NCBI GenBank assembly: GCA_009839745.1
Contig: VXPE01000132.1
Location: forward strand, 1 to 38,931
Source of the DNA: Candidatus Poribacteria bacterium
GTDB lineage: Bacteria; Poribacteria; WGA-4E; WGA-3G
Direction: 5' to 3'
Length of the DNA: 38,931 nt
Shown: positions 5,736 through 38,364 of the stretch, one piece after another
Numbering within the stretch: the stretch's first letter is position 1
Layout of the letters: the number at the start of each line of letters is the position of its first letter
Position numbers and translations under genes: made by a program
Notes under the pieces: model-generated
Told to the model about the DNA's origin: nothing
Seen by the model: only the letters and a program-made list of their open reading frames with translations
Databases searched by the model: none

Positions 5736-5750
5736 ATCTGGGAGAGGCTT

Positions 5751-6752: not shown

Positions 6753-6814
6753 TCTCTCTATTCGGTTTATGTCAATGCGCAAGGAGTGCCGTATTTTTAG
6801 CCAGTGATAAACAT

Positions 6815-6843
6815 TTGACAAGGGAAAAAAGATCGGGTATAAT
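6815..6843 (+). promoter_or_regulatory. Consensus sigma70 promoter for the DUF1552 gene
   Basis: TTGACA (6815-6820), exactly 17 bp, TATAAT (6838-6843). Both hexamers match the consensus fully. The start codon at 6945 is about 100 bp downstream, so the DUF1552 gene can be transcribed apart from the upstream cluster. Confidence 0.8.
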
Positions 6844-6944
6844 TGTGTCATAGGCGTTCTGAAACGAGAAATCACGTAGTAACAGTAGAGGTTTTCCAAG
6901 TTTCCTACTGCCTTAACTATAGGAGAGTTGACGAAGGAATAATT

Positions 6945-8294
6945 ATGAACACTTCAAAACAACTTTCACGTCGAACATTTTTACGCGGTTTAGGTGTCAG
7001 TATTGCTCTGCCGTGGCTGGAGGTAATGGGACCCCTTACCTCGTGGGCAAACGCTCCCGCGAGTGGGATAGCACACCAGACGGCTCCGAATCGGATGGCA
7101 TTCCTTTACGTGCCAAACGGAAAGATTATGGAGGATTGGACACCGAAGCAGGTTGGAACTAACTACGAACTCACAGATATCCTGAAACCTTTGGAAAATG
7201 TGAAAGACAAGATGTTGGTGCTCAGTGGTCTAACGGCTGATAAAGCCCGTGCGAACGGGGACGGCGGGGGTGATCACGCCCGTGCGATGGCTGCTTTCCT
7301 TACAGGCGCGCAGCCCCGTAAAACGGATGGTGCTGACATTCAAGCGGGTGTTTCTGTTGACCAGGCCGCGGCATCGCATATCGGTAGCCGGACCCGAATG
7401 CCTTCGCTTGAACTCGGAATTGATCCTGGAAGAAGGGCAGGGAATTGCGATTCTGGCTATAGCTGCGTTTATTCATCAACGCTCTCATGGCGTTCTGCGA
7501 CGCAACCACTTCCCAAAGAGGTACACCCGAAACTCGCTTTCGAACGACTGTTCTCCTCTCTGCCCGACACACAACGAGAGGAACGCGATCAACAGCGAAA
7601 AAGTATCCTCGATTTTGTCAGACAGGACTCAAAAGATATACTCCGTCACGTCAGTGGAAACGACGTCCGGAAACTCGATGAGTACTTCTCTTCTATCCGT
7701 GACATTGAAATAAGAATCGCATCGGCTGAAAAGTTCCCACGCATCGAAAGCCCGGACTATACCGTGCCGGAGGAGATTCCAGCAGATTATCAAGAACATC
7801 TACGTTTGATGATGGATCTTATGGTACTCGCATTTCAGGCGGATATAACCCGTGTTACAACCTTTGTCCTCGCAAATGAAGGGAGTAACAAACCCTATCC
7901 GTTCGTCGATGTTCCAGAGGGACACCACTACTTGTCACACCACAGCGGTGATGAAGAGAAGATAGAAAAGATCAAGCGAATTGATATCTTCCATTCTCAG
8001 CAGTTGGCGTATTTCTTGGACAAACTGGATGCTACCCGTGAAGGAGATGGTTCGCTCTTGGATCATTCAATGATTCTATACGGTAGCGGGAATGCGGATG
8101 GCAATCGACACAGCCACCACGATCTCCCAATTTTACTCGCTGGCAACGGCTGTGGAACGATCAGGAGCGGTCGTCATATTCGCTATCCGAAAGAGACACC
8201 GCTTAACAATCTCTGGCTATCCATGCTTAATCGGATGGATGTCGATCTTGCCCAATTAGGCGATAGCACTGGTAGTTTACACGGACTCTCTTAG
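6945..8294 (+). CDS. DUF1552 secreted protein with Tat leader
   Basis: 449 residues from the ATG at 6945, chosen because the twin-arginine leader (SRRTFLRGLGVSIALPWLE) starts there and a GAAGGA-type ribosome binding site precedes it; an earlier in-frame ATG at 6843 overlaps the promoter. The body shows DUF1552 hallmarks: the N-terminal RMAFLYVPNGKIMEDW segment, LSGLTADKA, the GGDHARAMAAFLTGA block, and the C-terminal SMILYGSGNADGNRHSHHDL segment. These proteins are exported and almost always encoded beside DUF1592 heme proteins; their activity is not established. The family fold resembles the sulfatase/alkaline-phosphatase-type DUF1501 group, but I cannot assign catalytic residues. Confidence 0.9.
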   Translation: MNTSKQLSRRTFLRGLGVSIALPWLEVMGPLTSWANAPASGIAHQTAPNRMAFLYVPNGKIMEDWTPKQVGTNYELTDILKPLENVKDKMLVLSGLTADKARANGDGGGDHARAMAAFLTGAQPRKTDGADIQAGVSVDQAAASHIGSRTRMPSLELGIDPGRRAGNCDSGYSCVYSSTLSWRSATQPLPKEVHPKLAFERLFSSLPDTQREERDQQRKSILDFVRQDSKDILRHVSGNDVRKLDEYFSSIRDIEIRIASAEKFPRIESPDYTVPEEIPADYQEHLRLMMDLMVLAFQADITRVTTFVLANEGSNKPYPFVDVPEGHHYLSHHSGDEEKIEKIKRIDIFHSQQLAYFLDKLDATREGDGSLLDHSMILYGSGNADGNRHSHHDLPILLAGNGCGTIRSGRHIRYPKETPLNNLWLSMLNRMDVDLAQLGDSTGSLHGLS

Positions 8295-9723: not shown

Positions 9724-11634
9724 CTACCAATCTTTAAACGGGAATATGCGCGTTTCTGTCGCCATCCCGTAGAAACTCCATAAACTCCCTGCAACGAACT
9801 CACCGAGAATTAAACCGAGGAAGAACGGTGCCGCCTTGCGATGCAACTGCAATCCCCCCTGCTTGATAATCAGCCATTTTGCGGTCGTGCTAATCACAAG
9901 CGAGATCCAGAGCCAGTTCATACACCAATCCGCTGCTCCTGAGACAGCATAACCAACGGCATGGAAGGGCCACCAAAAGAAACGCATCCGTAAAAACATC
10001 AAGAGAAACGTGAATCCCATACCGACACCCATCGCGGTCACTTCAGGAACATTCGGTCCCATCGGAAAATTGAGTTGTTGTTGCAACCTATCGAAGGGAT
10101 GACGTGCAAAACCGCCAGCCGCCCCAAAATGATATACATCGTGGAGATATGCCCAGAAAGAACCGATCGAACCGACAAGGGCAGCAAGGAGCATTACCCA
10201 CACCAGGGGTTTCGGATTAAACCGCGCACGTGAAGCAAGCTGGAACCCTTCTAACTGATGCGGCATTGGATGACTGCGGTGCGCACGATTAAAGAAAAAT
10301 AGGAAAGAGAGTGCTGTTAAGTTCGGACCTCCCATACCCCGCGAACCCAGAATCGCCGGTAAAGCGTAATCAGGCCCCATGAAATGTAGATCGTGTGCGG
10401 GGGCACCGGATTCTACCCGCATGCGTGTGATCCCTGTTGACAACGCGAAATACATCGCAAAGAAGGCGATACCGAGCGAAATACTGATGCCTATCTTCAC
10501 TGAAAACCCTATGAGGTAGATACACCCCAACACAATGCCTATAACGGCAGTCCGATATCGCATCGGTTCAACGGACTCATCAAGGCTTGAACGTCCTGTG
10601 GTTATCTGTTTGAAGACTTCAGTGAGGTATTTGCGGCTTGCCCATATCGCGAAGATCGCAAGCCCAAGATACGCACCCAGTGACTGTTGTCGGTCATAAG
10701 GAAACCCGGGTAATCCCCGAACCCCGATGATGGCACCAGCGACTCGCTGCATCTTGCGAAACAGATAGAAAAACCAGCAAGAGAACGATAAGTCCAGAGG
10801 CATAAAGAATCCGAGGCCGATGACGAAGGGATAGATAGAAAACGGGGTCCAACCGATGGCGTTCCACGGTTTGTCCGTGAAAAACTGGCTGATATTCCGA
10901 AACCGAACGCCAATGATCGGAATGGTCGGGAAGAGGTAACTGAACCCGTTAATGAGGTTCAGCAACGAGACGAGGATAAACGCTGTCCAGAAGGGTTTAC
11001 TTCTGAAGAAGTTCCTACCGCTGTCGCGCGTCATTTCTAAGGGCAGCTGGATGATAGGGTAGGCAAGTTTTTCACGTTCAGTCCACTGCTTCCGAAGCAC
11101 AACGTTGATGCAGAGCATTACAAACACAAGTACGACGATGAAACTCGTCCACCACAAGGCCGGACCGAGCCATGCTTGTAGCACTTCTGCGCGATAAAAC
11201 GTGGTTTGCCCTTCGTAAAACCCTTCTAAAATCCCTTTATCTTGGACTGTTCCCCACGTCGGCATGTATCGGTATAAGAGTTCTCGCCATTCGTTTTCAG
11301 GGGTATCGAACCAGAAGACGTGCCCGATCATCGGAATGAGCACTTGTGTGTGGTCGTGTGAAGCAATCGCACTCGCCATGCAAAGCATCACATATATGAC
11401 AAGCAGTTCGCCATGTGTCAATGCCCACTGTCGATTTATTCGTCGGACAAGTAGATTGAGAAGGGTAATCGTAAATACGAAGAAGACTGCGTTGAAAAAC
11501 AGGGACATCGTTGTCGGAAAAAGCCCCCACCAGACCATCTCCGTGTACATAATCCAATAGCAGTTGACCGGAATAAGGATGAGGGATAATACAACGGATT
11601 TGAAGGTAACACCACGGGTTAAAGCCGAAGGCAT
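9724..11634 (-). CDS. Polytopic membrane protein, DUF6785/DUF6784 type
   Basis: 636 residues with roughly 12 hydrophobic segments across the whole length. It has conserved blocks shared with the paralogue at 16890-18851: EKLAYPIIQLPLEM, FMPLDLSFSCWFFYLF, FWWPFHAVGYAV and the C-terminal FFLGLILGEFVAGSLWS. I recognise it as the large membrane protein family of Planctomycetes-like genomes annotated with DUF6785/DUF6784. A transporter-like role is plausible from topology but no substrate or mechanism can be inferred. GGAG precedes the ATG. It follows the ASPIC-ankyrin gene by about 120 bp on the same strand and could be co-transcribed with it. Confidence 0.8.
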   Translation of the reverse strand: MPSALTRGVTFKSVVLSLILIPVNCYWIMYTEMVWWGLFPTTMSLFFNAVFFVFTITLLNLLVRRINRQWALTHGELLVIYVMLCMASAIASHDHTQVLIPMIGHVFWFDTPENEWRELLYRYMPTWGTVQDKGILEGFYEGQTTFYRAEVLQAWLGPALWWTSFIVVLVFVMLCINVVLRKQWTEREKLAYPIIQLPLEMTRDSGRNFFRSKPFWTAFILVSLLNLINGFSYLFPTIPIIGVRFRNISQFFTDKPWNAIGWTPFSIYPFVIGLGFFMPLDLSFSCWFFYLFRKMQRVAGAIIGVRGLPGFPYDRQQSLGAYLGLAIFAIWASRKYLTEVFKQITTGRSSLDESVEPMRYRTAVIGIVLGCIYLIGFSVKIGISISLGIAFFAMYFALSTGITRMRVESGAPAHDLHFMGPDYALPAILGSRGMGGPNLTALSFLFFFNRAHRSHPMPHQLEGFQLASRARFNPKPLVWVMLLAALVGSIGSFWAYLHDVYHFGAAGGFARHPFDRLQQQLNFPMGPNVPEVTAMGVGMGFTFLLMFLRMRFFWWPFHAVGYAVSGAADWCMNWLWISLVISTTAKWLIIKQGGLQLHRKAAPFFLGLILGEFVAGSLWSFYGMATETRIFPFKDW

Positions 11635-16889: not shown

Positions 16890-18851
16890 TTAACTAAGCA
16901 AGATTCGATAACCCGTGCTGACGCCCGTTGCCATTCCAATAAGTGCCCAGATTCCAGCGCAGATCATCTCGCCAAGCACAAGCCCAAGGAATATCGGCCT
17001 CGCACTTCGATACATTCTCAATCCCCCGTACCTGACGAGAGTATACTTCATTATCCAGCCTATAAAGATTGAGGGCCACAGCTTGAATGAGGCCCAAGAA
17101 CTCAGCATTGTATACCCGATTGGATGAAGTGGCCACCACACGAAAATCCTTCTCAGCCACATCAACAGCCCCATGAAAAGGCTGCCGCCGACCATAAAAC
17201 CTGTGTTCGTCCAGTCCGTCCCGGTATCGGCGCTAACGAGCACAGAAGTCAGCCACCGCATGTCGCCCGCCCCCCCTGTGTAAGGCGCACGATGTGCATA
17301 GCTGACCTCGAGGACGGAATAATATGAGACAAGGGTCCCGATAACCATCGCCGCACCCATACCTATTAACAGTCCCCTCCGTCTGACCTTGACTTCATCG
17401 GCCGCCTTGAGACCGTTTACCACATACGGCATCATAATTTCCCTCAAGTCGCGCGTGAGAGAGACCGGATGCATAAACAGCGATGTCATGGTTGAAGGAT
17501 TGATTCTCGCTGAACCCAGCGTGGTAAAGAGAACGTAATGCGCTGAATACGAAGGATTGACAAAAGGAATTCCGCCGTGGATGACTTGCCATGTCAAGAC
17601 AATGTAAATGCCGAGAAGCACCAGTACAAAAAGCAGTGCGAATCCGAACGACATTCCCATCAGATGATTTGCAAACGCCAGCAGCAATATCCCGCCGACG
17701 AGACCGATAATTGTCAATCCAGCGGGCATCGCTTCGTTTGTGTCCTCGCTTTTGCGAAAGGCACTGACAAGCATGCTTCTGATGTGATGCCGTGCTTTGA
17801 AAAGGGTGTAGATGACAAAGACAAGGCAGGCACCGATTTCCTGAGAAGCGCTGAACGAATACGCGTTGTGTTGCACGCCTGGACCTTTGATGATTTGGAA
17901 ACCGAGCATCGAACCGATAAGACATTGGAGTTTGAAGAATAGAAAGAAAAACCAGAGGCTAAACGACACCTCAAGCGGCAGTAAATAGCTGAACCCCACG
18001 ATCGAAGAATACAAGTTGAGTTGCAAAGGTTTCAGGGCACTCCAAGGCTTTTCCATTAAGTAGGGGTGGGGATTGAATCGGACGGGAAATTCCGGCACGC
18101 CAGGGAAGAACGCATGAATGCCGTTCAACGTGTGAATGCATAGGGGAACGGCACATCCGACCCATAATGCTTTGTTCCTGAAGAGTGAATTTCTCGCGCC
18201 CGGCGGGGTGTTTGCCATCTCCACAGGCAACACAACCAACGGAAAGCTACACCGTTCAATCTCGACCCATTGTCTGCGCAGCAGCACCGAGAGGCATATC
18301 ACAACGAAGTAGAGAACAAACACATAAAGGGTCCAAGCGAATAGAGGTATCAGCCATGTCCCCCAGGGGATGGATTCACCCGAAGAGATGCCTTCATAAA
18401 AGGATTTGATAGCCTTCTCATCACGAACAATACGCCAGTGGGGAATATATTGATGGAAAAGTGCCTCCCAATCATTTTCGGGTGTCGCAAAATACTGGTA
18501 GGCGACAAGCGGGTTAAAGGCATATCGCATCATGCCTGTCGAAGGAATCCCGGAGGCGGCTGCCATGATACACCAGATTGTCACCAATTCACCCGCCGAC
18601 AGTGCGAGTTTGGGAGAAACTGCACTCAAGATGCGGTTGCCAATCAACACCAGGATCGTCAAGACAAAAAATGGACCGACAGGAAAATGACCTCCAGCGA
18701 GAAAGACATTGCGAATCACGTAATCATTGTAAGGCGCAATCAGACATTCCCCGGCGGCACAGGCGAGTCCAATAAGAACTGCCCGCGATGATATGCCAAC
18801 AGGTTTGCTCGTGGGGTTTAAGTGAGTATCGAACCGTTCTGACTTGTTCAT
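16890..18851 (-). CDS. Polytopic membrane protein, DUF6785/DUF6784 type (paralogue)
   Basis: 653 residues, about 12 hydrophobic segments, and the same ordered blocks as the protein at 9724-11634: EIERCSFPLVVLPVEM, LLPLEVSFSLWFFFLF, FVWWPLHPIGYTML and the C-terminal FLGLVLGEMICAGIWALIGM. The first 25 residues are polar, so the N-terminus is probably cytoplasmic. Function is unknown; the topology suggests transport or a membrane enzyme. It is monocistronic, between its own promoter and the LamG gene. It is clearly diverged from the first copy, so an old duplication or separate acquisition is more likely than a recent one. Confidence 0.8.
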   Translation of the reverse strand: MNKSERFDTHLNPTSKPVGISSRAVLIGLACAAGECLIAPYNDYVIRNVFLAGGHFPVGPFFVLTILVLIGNRILSAVSPKLALSAGELVTIWCIMAAASGIPSTGMMRYAFNPLVAYQYFATPENDWEALFHQYIPHWRIVRDEKAIKSFYEGISSGESIPWGTWLIPLFAWTLYVFVLYFVVICLSVLLRRQWVEIERCSFPLVVLPVEMANTPPGARNSLFRNKALWVGCAVPLCIHTLNGIHAFFPGVPEFPVRFNPHPYLMEKPWSALKPLQLNLYSSIVGFSYLLPLEVSFSLWFFFLFFKLQCLIGSMLGFQIIKGPGVQHNAYSFSASQEIGACLVFVIYTLFKARHHIRSMLVSAFRKSEDTNEAMPAGLTIIGLVGGILLLAFANHLMGMSFGFALLFVLVLLGIYIVLTWQVIHGGIPFVNPSYSAHYVLFTTLGSARINPSTMTSLFMHPVSLTRDLREIMMPYVVNGLKAADEVKVRRRGLLIGMGAAMVIGTLVSYYSVLEVSYAHRAPYTGGAGDMRWLTSVLVSADTGTDWTNTGFMVGGSLFMGLLMWLRRIFVWWPLHPIGYTMLSSWASFKLWPSIFIGWIMKYTLVRYGGLRMYRSARPIFLGLVLGEMICAGIWALIGMATGVSTGYRILLS

Positions 18852-23850: not shown

Positions 23851-26800
23851 ATGGAATATCACGCATTCATTACCCTTTTTGTAATAGCGGCATTGGTCTT
23901 AGCGAGTGAACTGAGTAGTGTAACAGCGGATGAAATTGGAGGGCTGTCGACGCAAGCCGCGTGTGGGCTTGCGGGACAATGGAATTTTGACGACGGCACC
24001 GGGACCGATCTCTCTGGCAATGGGAACCACGCCGTGCTGGGTGGCGCAAAGATTTATTCACTCGGTGAGGGGCAGGCGTGTATCGAAACGGTGTCCAAAA
24101 CCGAGCCGATGCGGATCCCTGTGTCTGAGAACTCCCCGCTTGCGATGTCACGTGGCACAATCTGTTTCTGGCTAAACACGATATCGGATCGATCCAACAT
24201 TCTCAGGTATAACAACGATGCTATTGAATTGAACACCTATCGCGGCTGTTTTCAGGTGCGTTTCCGAGGTGAAAAGGAGTTTGAATACTGGGAAGGGATT
24301 CTCGACTACGACTGGCCCCAATACGACATGCGCGAATGGGCGTTCTATCCGCATGTGAAAGCCACCATCGGCGATTCCGAATGGCATCTGTTTGCAGTCG
24401 CTTATGACGACGAAGCGAAGCAAATCGTCGGGTGGCGTGATGGCGAACAGATTGCCACGATTGACTTGTCGACGGTGGATACGGAACCGCTGCGCCGTGA
24501 AGGTTTAACGGAGATTCACACGGGTGAAGGCTTTGTCGGCTTTCTCGACGATCTGCGCATTTACGATAAGCCACTCACTGACGCTGAAATCCGTCGGATT
24601 TACGACGAGACGAAAGCCATCTATGCGGGAAGACGGGATACGAATCCGGCTGAAAGCAGGCAGAACACTTACAAGTACCAAGAAATAGACAGGACGCTCT
24701 ACAAGGCGTGGCTACAATTCAATCCGCTTGATACAGGACAACACAATCAAGATTTATTCAGAAACATTATCGCTGAGGGAGCGAATTCGACCGTCCAGAC
24801 GGCTGCTTCTGAATTGGCACAGGCGGCGGAATCCATGTTCAATTTCAAGCCTACTGTTTCGGAAATTGCCACTGTCGCTGGACCGAAGATCATTCTTGGA
24901 ACAGTTGATACCTCCGACTGGATCCGTGATCGTGCTGCAGACCTTCAACTCGATAGAATCGAAAGGGATGGGTTCGTCATCAAGGCAATCGAAGATGCCG
25001 TTGTGGTTGTGGGCGGAATACCCTCAGGGGTGGTTTTTGGCGCCTTCGACCTGATACGTCGCATCCAGATTGGACAGGATTTGCGCGCACTCGATGTGCT
25101 GGAAAATCCACAGGTGCCGATCCGTATGGTGTCACACTGGTCTTACTTCCGAGGACTTTTCGGCGACAGATGGCGCGGGGGTGGCAGAGACGATTCAATC
25201 TTCAGTTGGGAAGAGTTGCGCACGGGTGATACGAGGCGCATCCGAGATTGGGTGCGTATGTTGGCATCGTGCGGTTGGAATGCGCTCTGTCCGAGTGAGA
25301 TTAACTGGCACTACCGCAACAACTTTTTGGAGCATCTCGATGGGGTCGAAAAACTCGCCGACATCTGCCGAGACTACGGCATCAAACTCTACTGGAGTCC
25401 GAGTTATCTCCTGGCACTCGACCCAAAAACCGCCGATACCCTCTATGCGCGAGTCCCTGACTTCGGTGGCTATATGATGAAACTCGGTTCTGAGAAACAG
25501 AACGGTGATCCACGTCCACCAATGACGAACCGGATTGCGGATACACTGAAACCGTATGGTGGAAAGGTGCTCGTGCGCGCGTTTGTCTATGGCAACTTGC
25601 GATATACACCTGAACCCTATCGGAACTTGATCCCTTACGATCTGTTCGCACACGAAGACGGCAACTTTCGAGATAATGTTATTATCGTTCCGAAAGGCAG
25701 TCCTATGGATTGGGATCTGTGGGCACCGATCCCGGCACTTGACGGTGCGATTCAGAAAAATCTCTATGGCAGCGAACTCGTCATTGACAAGAGTTGGCCC
25801 GTCTCTTGGGTCAAAAAGTGGAAATGGTGGTTTGAACAGGACACCTATCGCAACGGACCGGGGAGTCTTAACAAATTCAGTGTGGATTGCATCATGGGGG
25901 TGTCGATGATCTCACCGTCACCGGCGTGGACGGAATGCCCATTGAACGCCGTGAACTATTACGGACTGGGTCGGCTCTCTTGGAACCCAGACCTGACGGT
26001 AGATGAAATTTACACGGAATGGATTCAGCAGACATTTGGCGATGATCCAGATATACTTCAAACGGTTAAGACTATCCTAATGATGCTTGAAGAGGTGACG
26101 CGTAAATCCTACAACTATCGGGGTTACCGCGGTATATGGCTTGATTCCTCCGACGACGATATGACAGAGAACAAGACCTCCTATATCGTCAACAGGGAAG
26201 GGGTAGGTGTTACGACCCCAGCGTTGCGTGAACGCGTGTTAGCGCAGTATGCCCCAGGACTTCGCAAGATATATGGGGATCCGTTGCGTGCGGAAGCGCA
26301 TCTCGTCGCATTCCACTTTGCAGAACACGATCAGCGACTTTCTATCGGTAGGACCCTCATCCAAGACATCTACGCCAACATGGAAGAGGCGGTCGAGATG
26401 GCGATACAGGCATCCGAACTCTGGAAAACGCTTGAAGGTAGAGTAGACTCGCATAGATATGAATACACGCTGGAAACGCTGGTGGACTATGCCGCATCCG
26501 TGCGCAGTATGACGCTTAAGAAATGGGTGACGAATTTTGAGAAGTATACGGGCAGAAAACGCGAGGAAACCCTCGCAGGACTGACAGCGGAAGCACTTGC
26601 GAAAGTTGGCACATACAACGTGAAGCATTTCGGTGCCGTTGCCGATGGCACGTCAAATGATGCAGATGCGATTAACGAAGCCATCACCGATTGCCACGCC
26701 GCTGGGGGCGGGACGGTCTTCGTACCTTCCGGTGTCTACGCGACGGGTTCTATCTACTTGAAAAGCAACGTTACGTTCGCAGTTGACACAGGGGCTGTGC

Positions 26801-27210
26801 TTAAGTATTCCTATCCGAACGCAGATATCGCGATGCTTGTCGGATCGGAATTGGAAAGCGTGAAAATATACGGTCCGGGAACCCTTGATGGTATGGGTAA
26901 CACGTGTATCGCATTAAAACGCACTAAAAACGTGAAAATCCGAAACCTGAATGTCTATAGAGGCGGTGATGCCGCAATTCTATCTGAAAATTGTGACGGA
27001 ACGCTTATTGACAACGTGGACATTCGAACGGATAACGACGGGCTTACGCTTTCTGAATCTCACAACGTAACGGTTACCGACTGCCGTATCGACGCGGTGC
27101 ACCGCGAGTATGGGAGACGTGTGGGGAGTGGTGAAGCAATTAAAATCAGTGGTGAAGAACACTCGTCCGAAAGCATCACTGTTCAAGATTGCTTTTTTGC
27201 AAACGAATAG
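23851..27210 (+). CDS. Secreted LamG / GH67-like / pectate-lyase-like multidomain protein
   Basis: 1119 residues with a signal peptide (about 1-26). LamG domain at about 38-250 (QWNFDDGTGTDLSGNGNHAV). An N-terminal glucuronidase-like alpha/beta domain leads to a GH67 alpha-glucuronidase-like barrel at about 410-760: VPIRMVSHWSYFRG, YGIKLYWSP, VPDFGGYMMKLGSEKQNGD and GGKVLVRAFVYG. By comparison with GH67, E548 would be the acid and D603 (HEDGNF) one base, but the REP glutamate is replaced in LWAP (A625). From about 922 a pectate-lyase-type right-handed helix follows (YNVKHFGAVADGTSNDADAI, GGGTVFVPSG), ending without a canonical active site and probably short of a full helix. A polysaccharide-degrading or binding role is likely; the precise substrate is not. 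Confidence 0.85.
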   Translation: MEYHAFITLFVIAALVLASELSSVTADEIGGLSTQAACGLAGQWNFDDGTGTDLSGNGNHAVLGGAKIYSLGEGQACIETVSKTEPMRIPVSENSPLAMSRGTICFWLNTISDRSNILRYNNDAIELNTYRGCFQVRFRGEKEFEYWEGILDYDWPQYDMREWAFYPHVKATIGDSEWHLFAVAYDDEAKQIVGWRDGEQIATIDLSTVDTEPLRREGLTEIHTGEGFVGFLDDLRIYDKPLTDAEIRRIYDETKAIYAGRRDTNPAESRQNTYKYQEIDRTLYKAWLQFNPLDTGQHNQDLFRNIIAEGANSTVQTAASELAQAAESMFNFKPTVSEIATVAGPKIILGTVDTSDWIRDRAADLQLDRIERDGFVIKAIEDAVVVVGGIPSGVVFGAFDLIRRIQIGQDLRALDVLENPQVPIRMVSHWSYFRGLFGDRWRGGGRDDSIFSWEELRTGDTRRIRDWVRMLASCGWNALCPSEINWHYRNNFLEHLDGVEKLADICRDYGIKLYWSPSYLLALDPKTADTLYARVPDFGGYMMKLGSEKQNGDPRPPMTNRIADTLKPYGGKVLVRAFVYGNLRYTPEPYRNLIPYDLFAHEDGNFRDNVIIVPKGSPMDWDLWAPIPALDGAIQKNLYGSELVIDKSWPVSWVKKWKWWFEQDTYRNGPGSLNKFSVDCIMGVSMISPSPAWTECPLNAVNYYGLGRLSWNPDLTVDEIYTEWIQQTFGDDPDILQTVKTILMMLEEVTRKSYNYRGYRGIWLDSSDDDMTENKTSYIVNREGVGVTTPALRERVLAQYAPGLRKIYGDPLRAEAHLVAFHFAEHDQRLSIGRTLIQDIYANMEEAVEMAIQASELWKTLEGRVDSHRYEYTLETLVDYAASVRSMTLKKWVTNFEKYTGRKREETLAGLTAEALAKVGTYNVKHFGAVADGTSNDADAINEAITDCHAAGGGTVFVPSGVYATGSIYLKSNVTFAVDTGAVLKYSYPNADIAMLVGSELESVKIYGPGTLDGMGNTCIALKRTKNVKIRNLNVYRGGDAAILSENCDGTLIDNVDIRTDNDGLTLSESHNVTVTDCRIDAVHREYGRRVGSGEAIKISGEEHSSESITVQDCFFANE

Positions 27211-30635: not shown

Positions 30636-31040
30636 CTATTGCCTGTCTTTGGTGAGCGTTGCTTCCAATTCAGAGATTCGACGCTCAAAAGATTCTATGA
30701 GTGTTGTAAGATATTGAATTTCTGATCTAATAACTGCGATGAGCCCGTGGGTGTCCAACGGTTCAGAAACGGGTTTGGGATTTTCAAAAATTCGCCACGT
30801 ACTGCCTGAGCCTCTGGAAACATTCTCGGCAAACCCCTTACCTTTTAAATATCTCAGTGCCGCTTTGATAGGGTTTGTTTTCGCTGTTGATGGAAGGCCG
30901 CCGTTTGATTGATGGTGTTGGATAACGCCGTCATCAATCTCTCGTCTACTCATGGTTTTTCCTGCGAATTGTTCTAAGATAATTGCTTTGGCGATTTTGG
31001 GCTTAAGGCGTGCGCCCTTGTATCTATAGTTTGGGTCCAT
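30636..31040 (-). CDS. Small winged-helix-like protein with C-terminal coiled coil
   Basis: 134 residues from the ATG at 31038-31040, chosen over one at 31061 because GGAGGAATAGG precedes it. There is no signal peptide. The N-terminal half (KPKIAKAIILEQFAGKTMSR through NPIKAALRYLKGKGFAENVS and STWRIFE) has the helix-turn-helix plus beta-hairpin pattern of winged-helix DNA-binding proteins. The last 40 residues form a coiled coil (LIESFERRISELEATL). It lies 48 bp downstream of the sigma-propeller gene on the same strand, so it is probably co-expressed and may act with it in regulation. I do not recognise a named family. Confidence 0.65.
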   Translation of the reverse strand: MDPNYRYKGARLKPKIAKAIILEQFAGKTMSRREIDDGVIQHHQSNGGLPSTAKTNPIKAALRYLKGKGFAENVSRGSGSTWRIFENPKPVSEPLDTHGLIAVIRSEIQYLTTLIESFERRISELEATLTKDRQ

Positions 31041-31088
31041 GTTTCCTATTCCTCCGTTCATAATAAGAAAGTCGGGAATCGGGAAAGT

Positions 31089-34000
31089 TTAGAACGAGTT
31101 GGCTATATCCGTTTGCTCCTTAAGCGAGATGTGGAACATACCGTGGTCATGGGTTCCGACGTAAAGGCGATCTTTACTGACAACGAGTGATAGAATACTA
31201 TCCGGAACGTCTGCGGAAAGCAATTCCCACTCGCTGTGAGCATCTAATCGGTAGGCACCGCTATCGCCGACACCATAGATTCTCGTGCCGTCCACAGCGA
31301 ATTTGTCTATAACGGTGGGCATCCGGTTTTTATCGGTGATGACTTGCCAGTGTTCTCCATTTTGTGAGATCAAGACCCCTTTATCGGTTCCGATACAAAT
31401 TGTTGAACCCGCGGAGATAATCTCCTTGAAATGTGCAAAGCGGATCGGTAGCGTTGACGTGATGTCTTTCCAACTGTCTCCGCTGTCAAAGGATTGAAAC
31501 AATTTCCCATTTCCATTACCGAAGTAGATGGTTTTATCAGAAACAGCCACTGCAGATTGGAAGTCGATATCGACCAATCCTGTGTCCGTCCATTCAGGAT
31601 TACCGGGTTTCCATTTGAAAAGTCGCCTCTTATATTCAGCGTAAAATGTTCCACTATCAACGGCGAAGACTCCGATGTTCGTGTGTTTTTTTCTCAGTAG
31701 ATGCAACATATATGCTGAGGGATTACCATTGTCTGGTGCGACCTCGGTGTCAAAAGCGGGGACCCCATGAATCGGGATGAATTCATCGCCCGGAGCGGAT
31801 GTGCGGAAGATAAACGGTTTGTTTTCCTTAATTGAAATAGCATAGAGGACGTTATCAGCAATCGTTAGTTTTACGTTGGCATAAAAATCAGTATCGAAAC
31901 GGTTTTGATCCGCAACTCGTGCCTTTAAGTTTTGTATCGGAGTCGAGTTGCGGGTTAACGTTGTTAGTTGCCGGTTATCGGTTAACAGGTTTTCGTTATA
32001 ACCGCTAACCGAAGACCGATCTCCCGTTTGTGTGTGCGCGTGGGTATCGAAGTGAACACTTGCCCAAGTCTTACCTCCATCAGTTGACTGGACAAGGTCT
32101 CCACCGATATGCATATAGAGTCTATGATTTAGATCGATCAAGTCGTACGTTGCGGGACCTGTCATTCCGTCTACATAAGGGTGCCAAGATTCACCGGCAT
32201 CGGTTGTGCGGCTGATCCCATATGCATCGGCTTTGTAAAATGTATTCTCATCAATAGCCACTGCTGGGAATCTAGGCAAGCCAAGTGAACTGATGTTTGA
32301 TCTAAGATGTGTCCAAGTTTTCCCACCATCAATAGATCGAAATTCAGTTACGCCGAGGATTAAGAGGGTTTTACCTGCAGCCAGGACCTGTATAGCAGAG
32401 TCTAAGTTTGTGACCTGAGATTCATCTGTAGGTGTTATTTCAGTCCAGGAGTCTCCAAGATCTGGTGAGTGGAAGATCCTTTTTTGTAATACTTCAAGGT
32501 TCGATATTTTTGGATATGATTTACTGGATTCAGAGTAGACGACATCAGGTGCCATTCCAACATAGAGGTTATTTTCGTCAACGGTCAGGGCGTAAACTGC
32601 ATTGGATGCGTCAGTGATCAATTGCTGCCAATTGCTTGAACCGAGGCGATAGAGTCCTTGGTTTGTACCAGCGAATAAGGTGTTTCCTATTGCAGCGATT
32701 GTAAAAATCCGTTTTCCTGTCAATCCGTTGTTTATGGGGTTCCAGTGCTGACCAGCATCAGTAGATCGAAAGATTCCTTTCTCTTGAAGGGCAAGGTACA
32801 GCGTTACAGTTGCGTTGGGATCGTTTTTTGGGATTGGTGCTGAGACGATGAGTCCATTTGCGACCCCCTTCGGACGCGGGCCAAGAACGTTCCACGTTTC
32901 ACCGCTATCTCCCGAAGCGAGTACCTCATCAACGGAAACAGTATAGAGGGTGCTTTGGTGTTCTGTCATAGGCACTCGGTACTGTCCGGTGGTATCGGTG
33001 TTAATAAGTACCCATGTTGCGTCGGGTGTCAATTTATAGAGCCCTGTTTTTGCGGCTGCGTAGATTGTTCCATCGATTGCTTCAAAGATGTTGAAGACGA
33101 TACTGCCTTTGGGTCCGATTGACTGTGTCCACTGTGAATCGGAAAACTGGGAGGTATCGTCGTCCCACGCGTTTGTTGTGAGGGTGGTCTGTGAGGTTTG
33201 CATGCCGGCACCGCTGTTTTTACCGGGGATAATTGTTCTGCCGATCTGATTCCGCACCGCGGGTTTTGCGACAATCTCAAGGTAGATAGGTTCGTCAACG
33301 AGTTCAATGGTAGGTTCAGATTGTGCGTCAAAACTATATGGTTGCTGGAACCGGAGGAGGTATTGACCGCCAATGCCAAAGAGTATCACTAATGCCACTG
33401 CAGAACCGAATGCTACCCAAGGGAGTAGTGGTTTTTTTGCCGGTGGTGTTGGTGTCGGGCTCAGGTCGGCAATGTGTCGCATGACGTTCTCAGTGAGATT
33501 GTCAGACAACTGCACACCGCTAAGCGTTTCGCACACTAGTGCTTCCTCTTCTTGTAGACGCTTGCGTGCGCGTCGGAGTCGACTTTTAATTGTGTTTATT
33601 GACACGCCTAAGAATCTGCTGATCTCGTTGGTCGTCATTTCGCCGAGATAGTAGAGCGTCACGACGGTTCGCTCACTCTCTGGAAGTTTCTCCAGAAGCG
33701 TTTTGACAAGATTTTGGCGACGCTTTCCGGCTTCAGTTTCGCGTTGGTGGAAGGTATGGTGTAGATGGGAAGCCTCTTCTATCTCTTCTGGAAGTGTTTC
33801 CTCTAAGGATTGCATATTCAACCTGTCCATTTTAGCTTTATTTCGCTTTATCCAATTAATGCAGAGCCGATTGGCGATGACATAAAGCCATCCATCAAAT
33901 CGGTTTGGATCCTCCAGTGTCCCAAGTTTTCTGTAGACTTGAATGAAGGTGTCTTGGGTAATTTCCTCGGCAATCTGAAAATCCCCAATTTTCCGCCATA

Positions 34001-34103
34001 TAAGGGCATGAACACCTTTTTTATGTTTTCGCATCAATATACTGAACGCTTCGTCGTCGCCCGACAAAATTCTTTGAATCAGTTGCACATCGTTATCTAT
34101 CAT
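31089..34103 (-). CDS. ECF sigma factor fused through one membrane helix to a BNR/Ycf48-like propeller
   Basis: 1004 residues with GGAG before the ATG. Sigma region 2 at about 10-85 (AEEITQDTFIQVYRKL, FDGWLYVIANRLCINW) and region 4 at about 130-185 (LPESERTVVTLYYLGEMTTN, IKSRLRRARKRLQ) are intact and typical of ECF sigma factors. A linker with PTPTPP leads to a single transmembrane helix at about 227-250, and the rest, about 700 residues, is a series of BNR/photosystem-assembly-type strands (SGDSGETW, STDAGQHW, SIDGGKTW, STDGGKTW, SFDSGDSW). The sigma half would be cytoplasmic and the propeller extracytoplasmic, making a one-protein surface sensor that must be released or rearranged to act. 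It diverges from the glycosyltransferase cluster. Confidence 0.92.
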   Translation of the reverse strand: MIDNDVQLIQRILSGDDEAFSILMRKHKKGVHALIWRKIGDFQIAEEITQDTFIQVYRKLGTLEDPNRFDGWLYVIANRLCINWIKRNKAKMDRLNMQSLEETLPEEIEEASHLHHTFHQRETEAGKRRQNLVKTLLEKLPESERTVVTLYYLGEMTTNEISRFLGVSINTIKSRLRRARKRLQEEEALVCETLSGVQLSDNLTENVMRHIADLSPTPTPPAKKPLLPWVAFGSAVALVILFGIGGQYLLRFQQPYSFDAQSEPTIELVDEPIYLEIVAKPAVRNQIGRTIIPGKNSGAGMQTSQTTLTTNAWDDDTSQFSDSQWTQSIGPKGSIVFNIFEAIDGTIYAAAKTGLYKLTPDATWVLINTDTTGQYRVPMTEHQSTLYTVSVDEVLASGDSGETWNVLGPRPKGVANGLIVSAPIPKNDPNATVTLYLALQEKGIFRSTDAGQHWNPINNGLTGKRIFTIAAIGNTLFAGTNQGLYRLGSSNWQQLITDASNAVYALTVDENNLYVGMAPDVVYSESSKSYPKISNLEVLQKRIFHSPDLGDSWTEITPTDESQVTNLDSAIQVLAAGKTLLILGVTEFRSIDGGKTWTHLRSNISSLGLPRFPAVAIDENTFYKADAYGISRTTDAGESWHPYVDGMTGPATYDLIDLNHRLYMHIGGDLVQSTDGGKTWASVHFDTHAHTQTGDRSSVSGYNENLLTDNRQLTTLTRNSTPIQNLKARVADQNRFDTDFYANVKLTIADNVLYAISIKENKPFIFRTSAPGDEFIPIHGVPAFDTEVAPDNGNPSAYMLHLLRKKHTNIGVFAVDSGTFYAEYKRRLFKWKPGNPEWTDTGLVDIDFQSAVAVSDKTIYFGNGNGKLFQSFDSGDSWKDITSTLPIRFAHFKEIISAGSTICIGTDKGVLISQNGEHWQVITDKNRMPTVIDKFAVDGTRIYGVGDSGAYRLDAHSEWELLSADVPDSILSLVVSKDRLYVGTHDHGMFHISLKEQTDIANSF
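31910..32011. repeat. Palindrome-rich insert inside the propeller coding region
   Basis: Two inverted repeats lie side by side inside the gene: CCGCAACTCG (31910-31919) with CGAGTTGCGG (31944-31953), and CGGTTATCGGTTA (31972-31984) with TAACCGCTAACCG (31999-32011, one mismatch). They encode an Asn/Thr/Gln-rich stretch at about residues 697-731 (NENLLTDNRQLTTLTRNS) between propeller repeats, and the frame is kept. Confidence 0.6.
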
Positions 34104-34120
34104 CAGAATTCTCCATCATC

Positions 34121-34157
34121 TTGGTTAATGAACCATCCCCCTTGGTTAATGAACCAT
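34121..34157. promoter_or_regulatory. Two dyad operator-like sites in front of the sigma-propeller gene
   Basis: TTGGTTAATGAACCAT occurs at 34121-34136 and again, identical, at 34142-34157. Each copy is itself a dyad (TGGTT aatg AACCA), and the 21-bp period puts both on the same DNA face. They lie 18-54 bp before the ATG at 34103, close to or within the transcript leader. A binding site for an autoregulator is likely. Confidence 0.55.
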
Positions 34158-34186: not shown

Positions 34187-34208
34187 CCCCTTTTTAATTT
34201 AAAGACAC
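34187..34208 (-). promoter_or_regulatory. GTGTCTTTAAATT-type motif upstream of the sigma-propeller gene
   Basis: On the minus strand this reads GTGTCTTTAAATTAAAAAGG followed by GG, about 85-105 bp before the start codon. The same 13-bp core, pointing the other way, precedes the glycosyltransferase operon at 34457, and a close relative lies at 38694. A shared promoter or activator site is inferred. Confidence 0.5.
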
Positions 34209-34456
34209 AATTTATTGGAGGAAGGGTGCATTTATATCAAAAATATTTGAAAGATGCGGATTTTTTTATTTTTTTCTGGACTGGTGATTTGTTTAGGGCA
34301 AGATTGTAGCATAAAACGCATTTGTTTTCTGATGCTTTTTTGTTAGTAAAATATTTCTCGTTAAAATCCTTCCTATACAGCTGTATAGAATCCCCTACTA
34401 GACAATTCAAACCTTTAAAACCTTTTTAACAGTATGCACCTTTTTCGCCTATAACG

Positions 34457-34477
34457 GTGTCTTTAAATTATAGAGGG
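34457..34477 (+). promoter_or_regulatory. GTGTCTTTAAATT-type motif upstream of the glycosyltransferase operon
   Basis: GTGTCTTTAAATTATAGAGG plus G at 34457-34477, about 60 bp before the GTG start at 34538. It matches the inverted copy at 34187-34208 over 13 bases. No good housekeeping -35/-10 pair is seen nearby. The rest of the 34104-34537 divergent region is AT-rich and holds no recognisable gene. Confidence 0.5.
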
Positions 34478-34537: not shown

Positions 34538-36256
34538 GTGCAAAATTTCTTTCCTAAAACCTTGCATCCTCTTTATATTTTTGAAGCGGAAAATGCCCTT
34601 TATGCAGCGGACCTTGAAAAAGCACGTGTTGTTGAGCTTTCGGTTGTAATGAGAGAGATGTTGAAGTTTGCGGAGAGCCAGAACGACATAGAAATCCAGC
34701 AGACCCTCGGAAACTCTTATACGGATGACGATATTCTTGAGGCATTTGAGAGGTTCGCGGTACTTGAGCGGGAAGGCTTATTATTCAATCGTGGTGAGGG
34801 GCTCAGGACGACTTTCAGCAATGAAAGTCAACGACGAAAGTTACTTGTCGCTATCCCGAGTATTACGGCGGATTCGTTTTTTGATATTGAATTACTCTCT
34901 GCTGGCACGAACATGGCACTTTCTCAGATGTTTCATCACCTTATCAACTACGTAGACCTTCATTTTGCCGGTGCTCAAAATCGCGAGTTAGCCGAGAATA
35001 TGTATGAAGTCAGTATGAGTGTGCGTGACTTAAAGCGATTGAGTCGAAGGGTCAGTGACACATATTTCGGTATTCTCACGCTACATCGAGAGCATGAGAA
35101 TTGGCTTTTTCCGCTTTATGAAGAGATTGAACTCCCTCCGATTCTGGTTCAGTGTCATGCGCCGCGCGGGCACGGTGGTTATGCGATGAATTCCCTTTTA
35201 CGGCACTATGCAGCAATGCGAGATTGTGATGGTTTTACGGCACCTTCAGATTATGTCCGCGAGTTTTATAGAGATTATGTGTGGGATCCGAGTTTCTTCA
35301 ATACACTGCCAAACGGTGTGGATTCAGCGTTGTTTAAGCCGATGGACAAGGCAGCGGCAAAGCGGGAAGTTGCGGAAGCAGTCGGAGATGCCCGTATTGA
35401 AACGATGCCGACTGTGGGTTATCTCTCACGAGTGCAATCGGAGAAAGGGGCATCCGTCTACTTGAAGTTGGCAGAGCTGAATCCCCATCTGCTTTTCTTG
35501 ATTGCGGGTCCGGGTCTCGGTAGGTATGCGTCATGTGAGTTGCCTGACAATCTTGTGTATGTGGGTTTCCATCGGCGTGAGAAGTTACCGATTATCTACA
35601 ATGCGTTTGATGTCTACTGTTTTCTGTCGATGTCAGGTGAGGAGACGTTTGGGTTAACGGTGCTTGAGGCAATGGCGTGTGGGGTTCCACCGGTCGTTCC
35701 GAATTTCGATGGTGTTCCCTCGGTTGTCGGGGATGCTGGGTTGATTGCGGATGCCGAGAATTTCGACCAAGACATAGCGACGCTTGTGAGTTATCCGTGC
35801 CCGATGGATTTTTCGGAGAAGCTTAATTTACTATTCAGAAATACTGGGATGCGTGAGCGGCTTTCTAAGAAGGCGAGAGCGCGGGCGGTGTCATTTACTT
35901 GGGATAAGACTGCGCGCCAGATTGTGCAATTGTTTGAGGAGCTTCATCGGAAAAAGCGGCTTATGAATCCGAACAGGCTTTTGAGTGTGTTCGCGTCGAC
36001 ACAAACGTTGGCATCGGGAGAAGCAGAGATATTGAAATACAAGTCGGTTGTGTTGAGTATGAACACGCGTTACGATCGGTGTCTCATAAGAAATGCGGCG
36101 TATCCGATGCGTGTTGAGGACGGGTTGGTGTTGAGTATTTTGAAAGACCATACGCCCAGAGAAGCGGAGGCACTGCTCACTGCACTGGTCTCGGATGAAA
36201 CGGAAGCCAAGGCAACTCTTAAAAGGGTTCGCGGCTTAATTAATGCAACGGCTTGA
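34538..36256 (+). CDS. GT4-like glycosyltransferase with N-terminal PqqD/RRE-like domain (copy 1)
   Basis: 572 residues from a GTG with GGAGGATAACA directly upstream. The N-terminal 12-82 stretch reads as a small winged-helix peptide-binding (PqqD/RRE-like) domain: strands around YIFEAENALYAADLEKARVV, then DDDILEAFERFAVLEREGLL, as seen at the start of radical-SAM peptide maturases. The rest is a GT-B/GT4 enzyme: acceptor half with HAPRGHGGYA and LPNGVDSALF, donor half with VGYLSRVQSEKGASVYLKLA, LFLIAGPG, and a complete E-x7-E motif (E369, E377, in ETFGLTVLEAMACGVPPVV). A C-terminal tail of about 90 residues resembles that of copy 2. I infer it glycosylates the cysteine-rich peptide encoded at 38095. 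It leads the operon. Confidence 0.85.
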   Translation: MQNFFPKTLHPLYIFEAENALYAADLEKARVVELSVVMREMLKFAESQNDIEIQQTLGNSYTDDDILEAFERFAVLEREGLLFNRGEGLRTTFSNESQRRKLLVAIPSITADSFFDIELLSAGTNMALSQMFHHLINYVDLHFAGAQNRELAENMYEVSMSVRDLKRLSRRVSDTYFGILTLHREHENWLFPLYEEIELPPILVQCHAPRGHGGYAMNSLLRHYAAMRDCDGFTAPSDYVREFYRDYVWDPSFFNTLPNGVDSALFKPMDKAAAKREVAEAVGDARIETMPTVGYLSRVQSEKGASVYLKLAELNPHLLFLIAGPGLGRYASCELPDNLVYVGFHRREKLPIIYNAFDVYCFLSMSGEETFGLTVLEAMACGVPPVVPNFDGVPSVVGDAGLIADAENFDQDIATLVSYPCPMDFSEKLNLLFRNTGMRERLSKKARARAVSFTWDKTARQIVQLFEELHRKKRLMNPNRLLSVFASTQTLASGEAEILKYKSVVLSMNTRYDRCLIRNAAYPMRVEDGLVLSILKDHTPREAEALLTALVSDETEAKATLKRVRGLINATA

Positions 36257-36371: not shown

Positions 36372-38117
36372 ATGAAACGTAGAACAGATTATCGCCTGAA
36401 GCGTCACCATAAGTTTGAACATGGCGGACGCAAATATGTAGCTGACCTTGAGGCGGACGACATTGTTGAAGTAAACGCCGTGGAATGGGAGATCCTTTCG
36501 CGTTATGGGGCGCAGACCCAGTATGATATCGTGAAAGAACTGAAGCAGAAGTACAAGGTATCCTCTATCTTCGATGGCATTGAACGGTTGGAGCAACTTG
36601 GAAGGCAGGGCATCCTTCTGCGTGCTGAGATTGAGGCGGAGAGACTTCCTCATGCGAATGGAGATCGACATCCGAAGTTGTTGGTCCCCTTCGATTTTAC
36701 GAAGGAGAAGTTGGCGTTGGACCACGTCACGAATCTGAATCGGTATCGACTCTTAACGCACCTGACCAAGTATGCCGAGTTGGAGACGTTTAACTTTTCC
36801 AAAGACGGAGCGACGCACATAGATCTGGGACAAATTGATGTTCGGCATATAGAAGTTACGGATGACAACACTTTTTCTCCAGCATGGTATGCAGATGACG
36901 GATACACAGGTATCCTGCTCCTGTCGCAGTTCCTGTTAGATGATCTGCTCTTCTATCAGGTTTCAGATGTCCCCATTGTGCACTGTATAGAGGGTTTTCA
37001 GGGCTTACAAGGGAGTATAGTTGAGACCCTTCTGACGCTGAACGCTTTCCAAGATGCGAAGGATACGTTGGTCGTAAAGTCATCGTGGATGAAGGCGTGG
37101 CTTGAAGAGTTGGATATTCCGGGAGAAAAAGTGTGTGTTATTCCTGACGGCATAGACGTGGTTTCCGAGTCGTTAGGGGATAAAGCGTTAGCAAAGCGTC
37201 ACACGGCGGCGGTTTTTGAAAATCCGATGTTCGTTAGACAACCGGTTATCGGACTGATATCTGGATTTGAACCGAATCGCGGCGCGGTGTGGATTTCTGA
37301 GTTTGCGCGATCTAACCCGCACCTCACGATTTTTGTCTATGATGCGGTGTTAGCGCGGCGCGCGCTACATCTGCCGGAGAATGTGGTGATCTTCAGTGTT
37401 GACAGTGAGGAGACTCGAACGATTTTACCGCTATTCTTTCAGGCACTGGATCTTGTGTGTTTTCCTGCGATTCCCGGAACCCCGCTTTCGGTGGTTTCCG
37501 AAGCGATGGCGTATGGAACGGCTTGTGTTGTAATGACGAAGTATGGGATGCCTGCAGAAGTTTCGGGTGCTGGGGTTGCCGTGAAGTCGGACTGGGATAG
37601 TTTTGGCAATTTCCGTGTACCACTGCGGCATCTATCACAGACAATAAACGGACTGTTGGCACCCTGTGGTGGGCGTGCGGCATTTGCAGACGCTGCTAAG
37701 GGGCTAATGCAACGATTTACTTGGGAACAAACGGCAGGGGAACTCGTGCGGTTGTTTGAAGCGAATTTTCGTAAAAAAAGAGGTTTTTCAAAGACAGCGA
37801 GTCCTCTGTTCCCATCGATTTTTTGTCGTCAATATGACCCAGGGACCGGGACGATAGACACTTGTGCCTATCGACACGGAACGGGTAGGTATGAACATCT
37901 TGAAACCGCATTGGCAGAAGTGTTATCTGAACATCACACATCTGCTGAAGTTGAATCGGTTGTCAAGCATTTCCAGCGTACAGGTTCTGCTCCGACGTGC
38001 GATATGATTGATGCTGGAAATGGGTTTCCGAGCCGTGGGGGTCAGGAAACCAATCCCGCCAAGATGGAGCATTGGCAGAAAGGAGGAGTCCGAAATGAAT
38101 GCCAAGATCTTTGGTAA
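36372..38117 (+). CDS. GT4-like glycosyltransferase with N-terminal PqqD/RRE-like domain (copy 2)
   Basis: 581 residues, paralogous to the preceding gene throughout. Residues 10-78 form the PqqD/RRE-like domain (FEHGGRKYVADLEADDIVEV, VEWEILSRYG, IFDGIERLEQLGRQGILL). The GT-B part has VVKSSWMKAWLEELDIPG, VIPDGIDVV, IGLISGFEPNRGAVWISEFA and IPGTPLSVVSEAMAYGTACV. Here the first glutamate of the E-x7-E motif is replaced (G369) while E377 stays, so catalysis or donor use may differ, or this copy may serve as a partner of copy 1. Ribosome binding site is weak; the gene follows copy 1 by 115 bp. Its last 23 bp overlap the peptide gene, indicating translational coupling. Confidence 0.85.
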   Translation: MKRRTDYRLKRHHKFEHGGRKYVADLEADDIVEVNAVEWEILSRYGAQTQYDIVKELKQKYKVSSIFDGIERLEQLGRQGILLRAEIEAERLPHANGDRHPKLLVPFDFTKEKLALDHVTNLNRYRLLTHLTKYAELETFNFSKDGATHIDLGQIDVRHIEVTDDNTFSPAWYADDGYTGILLLSQFLLDDLLFYQVSDVPIVHCIEGFQGLQGSIVETLLTLNAFQDAKDTLVVKSSWMKAWLEELDIPGEKVCVIPDGIDVVSESLGDKALAKRHTAAVFENPMFVRQPVIGLISGFEPNRGAVWISEFARSNPHLTIFVYDAVLARRALHLPENVVIFSVDSEETRTILPLFFQALDLVCFPAIPGTPLSVVSEAMAYGTACVVMTKYGMPAEVSGAGVAVKSDWDSFGNFRVPLRHLSQTINGLLAPCGGRAAFADAAKGLMQRFTWEQTAGELVRLFEANFRKKRGFSKTASPLFPSIFCRQYDPGTGTIDTCAYRHGTGRYEHLETALAEVLSEHHTSAEVESVVKHFQRTGSAPTCDMIDAGNGFPSRGGQETNPAKMEHWQKGGVRNECQDLW

Positions 38118-38364
38118 AATTAATCACTTCCTGAAATCTGAAGACGGCCGTGTTGGTGTCAAAGTACCGCTGGCATTAGGAATAGCAAGTGGGAGTCTGT
38201 TGTTAGTTCAATCAGTGCTTTCCCCTTCCGCTTATGCTGGAGTTGATGAGTGCCGTTTTGATACTGACTGTGACCCCGGGGAGTCTTGTGAAAGTGTGTG
38301 TGAGGGTACAACGGAAAACGGTACCTGTTTAGGGGAATGGGTACGCAAATGCGTCGATTCATAA
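38095..38364 (+). CDS. Exported six-cysteine peptide, candidate glycosylated precursor
   Basis: 89 residues from the ATG at 38095, chosen for the strong AAGGAGGAG upstream; longer in-frame starts lie inside the glycosyltransferase gene. Residues 1-23 are a polar, basic leader (MNAKIFGKINHFLKSEDGRV), 24-42 a hydrophobic helix, and SPSAYA at 43-48 a likely signal-peptidase site. The remaining 41 residues hold six cysteines (53, 59, 65, 69, 78, 86; pattern CX5CX5CX3CX8CX7C) with several Ser/Thr. The unusually long leader fits recognition by the RRE-like domains of the two enzymes encoded upstream. Whether the product is an antimicrobial, a signal or a surface glycopeptide cannot be told. Confidence 0.75.
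   Translation: MNAKIFGKINHFLKSEDGRVGVKVPLALGIASGSLLLVQSVLSPSAYAGVDECRFDTDCDPGESCESVCEGTTENGTCLGEWVRKCVDS

Follow-up and report, generated by a model that had tools for sequence, protein, structure and literature searches.

A sigma factor, a membrane helix and a beta-propeller ectodomain in one chain

The window, by which we mean the whole 38,931-nt stretch of Candidatus Poribacteria DNA analyzed here, carries a minus-strand gene for a 1004-residue protein, with two glycosyltransferase genes and a short peptide gene diverging from it on the plus strand (Table 1). The 1004-residue protein is encoded by a single ATG-started open reading frame, and the plus strand of the same interval is full of stops.

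Table 1. Features of the divergent sigma/glycosyltransferase locus (window coordinates)
Feature	Position	Strand	Basis or remark
141-aa protein	30636..31061	-	27 nt downstream of sigma gene; no predicted membrane helix
Sigma - membrane helix - double propeller protein	31089..34103	-	1004 aa, one open reading frame
Predicted tandem beta-propeller ectodomain, residues 323-996, Asp-box/BNR repeats	31116..33137	-	AlphaFold2, Foldseek
Juxtamembrane element, residues 251-288	33240..33353	-	RFQ.PYSFEA.SEPTIEI.DAPI...KPAVRNQ.GR
Single membrane helix, residues 226-250	33354..33428	-	Hydropathy; conserved A231, G233, G243, Y248
Post-sigma4 segment, residues 187-225	33429..33545	-	AlphaFold2; two short helices, Pro-rich stretch ending KKP
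ECF region 4, residues 132-183	33555..33710	-	PF08281; -35 covariation
ECF region 2, residues 23-89	33837..34037	-	PF04542 (Pfam); mean column entropy 0.85 bits in 75 relatives
ECF-type promoter motif TGCACCCTTCCTCCAATAAATTGTGTCTTT	34201..34230	-	Faces sigma gene, 127 nt before ATG
ECF-type promoter motif TGCACCTTTTTCGCCTATAACGGTGTCTTT	34435..34464	+	Faces glycosyltransferase operon, whose start is 103 nt away
GT4-type glycosyltransferase 1, first gene of predicted target operon	34538..36256	+	PF00534
GT4-type glycosyltransferase 2 with N-terminal PqqD/RRE-resembling domain	36372..38117	+	NCBIfam, AlphaFold2 topology
89-aa peptide	38095..38364	+	Conserved hydrophobic leader, then variable 6-Cys core; 15-member family

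In Pfam searches, the Sigma70_r2 match scored 46 bits against a cut-off of 24 and the Sigma70_r4_2 match 58.9 against 25.7; the TIGR02937 (sigma70-ECF) match reached 89.6 bits against a cut-off of 42.9. With both the sigma2 and the sigma4 domain above curated cut-offs, the protein belongs to the ECF sigma factors (sigma70 group 4), and its recognition helix comprises residues 168-183, SINTIKSRLRRARKRL. Hydropathy revealed one hydrophobic helix (best windows 226-252). The C-terminal part gave Sortilin-Vps10 and PSII_BNR matches, both above the Pfam cut-offs, so that the repeats are of the sortilin/BNR/Ycf48 type; no WD40 Pfam match was found in the protein, which has BNR/Asp-box repeats instead. 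An earlier note, made from the letters of the sequence, had read here ECF regions 2 and 4, one membrane helix and a BNR/Ycf48-like propeller in one frame. Pfam, hydropathy and AlphaFold2 confirmed this reading and support the idea that one chain tethers a sigma factor to a propeller of extracytoplasmic type.

The structure prediction of the propeller that the note had called for was run in AlphaFold2 with 75 relatives. It gave confident helices in sigma2 and sigma4 and a confident fold of the propeller region, with strands in propeller geometry over residues ~323-996, whereas residues 217-322 had pLDDT <50, leaving the helix and the juxtamembrane part without confident structure. The nearest Foldseek matches of the ectodomain were GH74 two-propeller enzymes (the top matches were all GH74, E about 1e-20). 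The TM-score to the GH74 target was moderate (about 0.54), in part because the query took in the sigma half. Lower matches included PorZ and the Bacteroides BT4663/BT4673 periplasmic sensors. In these models, the ectodomain has the two propellers of a GH74-type double propeller.

The 141-residue protein encoded downstream had no Pfam match and was conserved with the closest orthologues only. Elsewhere in the window, one 1119-residue chain combines LamG, GH67 and pectate-lyase-like parts (23851-27210, +), and a planctomycete-type PSD/PSCyt protein lies near a DUF1552 (HXXSHH) protein; the window also holds two DUF6785/6784 paralogues (coordinates of these genes: 2254-8294, +; 9724-11634, -; 16890-18851, -).

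An expanded family with exchangeable propellers

A short contig in a 141-contig assembly of an uncultured lineage raises the question of whether an assembly join or a frameshift had fused two genes, and the earlier note had named a break between residues 190 and 260 as the result that would overturn the single-chain reading. Nine further ECF fusions in the source genome fall in the same sigma subfamily, at 51-67% identity; two of them share a contig and the others lie apart. Six members of this assembly, on separate contigs, have the full sigma-helix-propeller layout. In addition, 75 complete relatives align end to end, and some relatives are in single-contig chromosome assemblies (L076, L088, L094 and L120). 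Because so many full-length relatives share the layout, single-contig assemblies included, we reject an artefactual fusion and consider its probability negligible.

Copies were counted with a linker-only profile (residues about 189-359), which found 8-61 copies per genome in the 24 genomes of the genus searched and 0-3 per genome in other families of the phylum. The chassis of sigma domains, helix and juxtamembrane element was present in 59/59 genomes searched of the Poribacteria family-level group, some of which had no more than one or two linker copies; in this wider survey, counts per genome were capped at 42. Every named record among the relatives listed was Candidatus Poribacteria, and the record names together with PMC8546597 indicate that the family is likely that of the sponge-associated Entoporibacteria. 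A survey by simple hydropathy, rather than by a trained predictor, placed a membrane helix at residues 190-300 in all 122 members with an intact N-terminus and exactly one helix in 120 of them.

Among the 75 full-length members, mean column entropy was 0.67 bits in sigma4, 0.85 in sigma2, 0.71 in residues 251-275 and 1.59 in the propeller. A 25-residue segment outside the membrane is thus constrained like the sigma factor itself. The same chassis carries Kelch propellers in five relatives (L145, L136, L114, L112 and L083) and WD40 propellers in two (L113 and L087), indicating that the chassis is modular; the juxtamembrane element is also kept in several Kelch-propeller members. In the sigma half, C81 was the sole conserved cysteine of the 75-member alignment, and the two-Cys link between sigma2 and sigma4 of the ECF57 type was not present.

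Other members of the subfamily depart from this layout. One paralogue is split over two frames (L038:7535-10296, -; G000:C112) and one propeller fragment is stranded (L192:6858-7322, -; G000:C64); these reflect either the decay of copies within the expanded family or errors in the assembly. At another locus, one 577-residue reading frame joins an ECF sigma of the same subfamily with an entire DnaN sliding clamp (L034:7402-9135, +; G000:C60). Full-length ECF-DnaN fusions without stops occur in >30 family genomes, single-contig ones included, beside separate dnaN genes, and we take the fusion to resemble a covalent version of phage T4 clamp-assisted transcription. On the same contig, an FtsZ/tubulin GTPase domain is joined to a more distantly related ECF sigma (405 residues; L034:12435-13652, +); this fusion is conserved at full length in many family genomes and has longer versions of 1350-1450 residues.

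A promoter motif that covaries with the recognition helix

The earlier note had singled out the divergent promoter region, and this interest proved well placed: an ECF-type promoter, TGCACCCTT-N-GTGTCTTTA, occurs there on both strands. The strict pattern was found twice only in the 38.9-kb window, both times in this intergenic region, where a sigma70-type consensus scan scored little above shuffles. Upstream of fused-sigma genes in general, the pattern was TGCA(C/A)C(C/T)TT-N14-17-GTC(A/T). It preceded 31 of 94 fused-sigma genes and 18 of 435 other genes, an odds ratio of 11.4 with p 5e-14 in a test run on the same sequences in which the motif was found. In four whole genomes there were 93 pattern matches and 5 for the reversed control. 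In a larger set of 173 genes, 85 had the motif and 88 paralogues lacked it; by eye, other paralogues carry TGGTATACT-like extended -10 boxes instead. If the promoters are used as proposed, transcripts of the sigma and the glycosyltransferase gene would each start a few nucleotides past GTGTCTTT. A repeat, GGTTCATTAACC, which is almost palindromic and present in two near-identical copies, was also noticed by eye just before the sigma gene start (34110-34155) and is a possible operator.

Among the 85 genes with the motif, the -35 triplet followed residues 173 and 177 of the recognition helix. AC(C/T) went with KS or KN (42/42), CC(C/T) with KR, KQ or KH (30/31) and CGT with TQ (10/10). The two positions correspond to base-contacting residues of the helix in the E. 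coli sigma-E/-35 structure, and K173 and R177 are candidate -35-contact residues of the window protein. Of about 240 sites, 173 and 177 predicted CGT best, with balanced accuracies of 0.99 and 0.97; the site ranked after them reached 0.89. Mutual information alone is confounded by relatedness. In a tree built without the recognition helix, 3-4 independent pairs differed in CGT, and in none of them did T173 change in the opposite direction. Such switches are too few for a phylogenetic sign test, and the case for a -35 code is strong but not decisive. For the ACC class, which has a single origin, many sites predicted equally well because one clade carries it. The tracking of the triplet by residues 173/177 argues for an active, autoregulating sigma.

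The same motif also precedes a dnaN gene (L194:998-1178, +) and an HtrA-like protease gene (L189:1666-1764, +), and the regulon may thus extend to replication and to quality control of the envelope. Since such targets are typical of general envelope or stress regulons, the motif could instead belong to an ordinary stand-alone ECF, with the fused sigmas being targets or decoys rather than readers. However, the recognition helix NT.(K/T)SRL.R(A/G)R.(R/H)L was shared by 9/10 close fused proteins but by no stand-alone ECF encoded in the source genome, and it is in the fused sigmas that helix residues go with the -35 triplet ahead of the encoding gene. We consider a stand-alone reader very improbable.

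The divergent glycosyltransferase/peptide operon

The divergent order of sigma and glycosyltransferase genes was kept in three orthologous loci (L070, L074 and L077). In these, the glycosyltransferase-facing site remained at 103-106 nt while the rest of the spacer had diverged; L078 also has a footprint of this motif. The second genes of glycosyltransferase pairs lacked a promoter site, as expected for an operon. Such glycosyltransferases were present in 19 sampled loci, and 31 of their 35 genes lay upstream of the sigma gene closest to them.

The N-terminus of glycosyltransferase 2 had a weak ScfB-like NCBIfam match (E 0.003), and AlphaFold2 predicted three strands followed by three helices, which suggests a PqqD/RRE-like peptide-binding domain. 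The peptide encoded next belongs to a family of 15 members with a constant leader (SEEGxVGVKSPLTLG...) and a variable core of 4 or 6 cysteines, encoded near RRE-like glycosyltransferases (besides the window, L032, L035, L088, L092, L094, L126, L137 and L190). The Cys-rich family is a candidate RiPP or defensin-like system, and the output of the predicted operon may be a modified secreted peptide.

Anti-sigma factors, proteases and possible release of the sigma half

The 1004-residue protein had no Pfam match to a zf-HC2 zinc finger or a FecR-type anti-sigma domain. It has cysteines at 81, 191 and 903 only and contains no HxxxCxxC motif; nor was a zinc-finger motif found in the post-sigma4 segment. 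We therefore rejected a zinc-finger or FecR anti-sigma part within the chain. The tethered sigma could be kept inactive by simple membrane tethering or by the 187-225 segment.

A separate partner, either a soluble anti-sigma or a periplasmic co-receptor on the juxtamembrane segment, could also silence the sigma, with the propeller binding that partner rather than a ligand. Propellers often bind proteins, the juxtamembrane residues are conserved across different propellers, and TolB-like propeller genes are frequent neighbours of fused sigmas (25 loci). However, the HxxxCxxC motif of zinc-finger anti-sigmas was present in 0/139 small neighbours of fusion genes, which bears out the earlier claim that no anti-sigma gene adjoins, and the neighbourhood survey found no gene family universal beside fused sigmas. 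We consider silencing by a separate partner improbable.

The earlier note had suggested looking for a rhomboid or a site-2 protease. Rhomboid was not found in any of 45 genomes of the family searched, single-contig ones included, and was present in 16/16 related genomes outside the family. Its absence from all 45 removes the rhomboid option, and we rejected rhomboid release by gene content. In contrast, RseP-type proteases (PF02163) were encoded in 24/24 genomes searched, so a site-2 protease is available; they were also found in 14/14 control genomes, and since they are near-universal, their presence is weak support for proteolytic release. Site-2 proteases usually cut type II substrates, and the N-in, C-out topology that we infer from charge and architecture fits a substrate of this type. 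Sigma release by proteolysis, which the earlier note had proposed, is plausible as an intramembrane cut on this gene content, and the juxtamembrane element at 251-288 is a candidate site-1 cleavage or partner-binding segment.

With somewhat better than even confidence, we propose that the protein is an autoregulated one-chain transmembrane receptor-sigma factor that is freed by proteolysis and drives its own gene together with the divergent glycosyltransferase/peptide operon. The ECF half would face the cytoplasm, held at the membrane, and the outer double propeller would sense a ligand, for which a glycan or a surface polymer is the likeliest class. This signal would bring about a cut in the conserved juxtamembrane segment, after which an RseP-type site-2 protease would cut the helix and free the sigma half. 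The freed sigma would then read TGCACC(C/T)TT-N-GTGTCTTTA promoters and raise expression of its own gene and of the divergent operon.

Cleavage may not be needed if the ligand shifts the conformation or oligomer state of the receptor and the sigma works while membrane-tethered. Changes in a dimer could be passed on by the one conserved helix, which has small residues, and no site-1 protease site or self-cleavage domain was recognisable in residues 251-322. Moreover, the C-terminally extended ECF41, ECF42 and ECF57 are held to use conformation or partner binding (PMC8999054). On the other hand, IutY, the characterised membrane-tethered case, is cut, and its truncation activates it (PMC8999054), while the highly conserved juxtamembrane segment suits a cleavage site. 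We consider action in the tethered state rather unlikely and retain proteolytic release as the preferred reading.

Discussion

A sigma factor freed from the membrane in this way would constitute a single-gene route from surface signal to transcription, expanded across a whole Poribacteria family. In the literature searched, we found no paper describing the sigma-helix-propeller architecture and no described surface-signal-to-transcription route for the uncultured sponge-type Poribacteria. The Poribacteria genome paper PMC3909097 noted abundant WD40 proteins and nowhere mentions sigma.

More broadly, and tentatively, Poribacteria may sense the outside through an invariant chassis with swapped BNR, Kelch and WD40 propellers, so that tens of receptors per cell would converge on three or four -35 classes. 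At the window, the output would be glycosyltransferases of the RRE type together with a secreted, Cys-rich peptide that may be glycosylated; we put the chance of this wider picture at somewhat below even. To our knowledge, the logic of a receptor family feeding shared promoters is known in no bacterium. The analysis offers exact predictions on the promoters read by each copy, the residues that set this choice and the candidate protease that would free the sigma half. The fused family would represent a ready-made natural collection of outside sensors, each with its transcription output attached.

Several known systems share parts of this design. ECF52 (SCO4117 of Streptomyces) likewise joins an ECF, a membrane helix and an outer carbohydrate-related sensor in one chain, and positive autoregulation is suggested by a motif ahead of its gene (PMC5826349). 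In ECF52, however, the chain includes a zf-HC2 zinc finger, and the outer part consists of a Pro-rich region and a carbohydrate-binding module; the group is reported from Actinobacteria only (PMC5826349). The relatives listed here are from Poribacteria, and the present protein lacks a zinc finger, has a double propeller and belongs to a family of up to about 60 copies per genome. In IutY (ECF243) of Pseudomonas putida, the sigma is similarly fused in cis to a membrane-bound regulatory part and is released by Prc and RseP; unlike here, that part is the membrane anti-sigma of a cell-surface signalling system answering aerobactin (PMC8999054).

ECF57 and the planctomycete WD40-extended ECFs resemble the present family in their C-terminal propeller and many young paralogues, and are proposed to act through protein interaction (PMC8999054, PMC8567305). 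The Poribacteria fusions differ from them in having one conserved membrane helix and Asp-box propellers, with WD40 in rare relatives only. The SigI/RsgI sigma systems of Clostridium thermocellum also have many paralogues, with exchanged outer polysaccharide sensors, a single membrane helix and release from the membrane by RseP; there, however, sigma and sensor are two proteins and an outer juxtamembrane domain self-cleaves (PMC12203970). Bacteroides BT4663/BT4673 (PDB 4a2l, 3ott) combine a periplasmic multi-propeller sensor and a transcription output in one chain, but the output is a hybrid two-component system with no sigma factor. The fusion described here is of a known kind, the ECF factors with C-terminal regulatory extensions, and is set apart by its propeller ectodomains, its scale and its readable promoter code.
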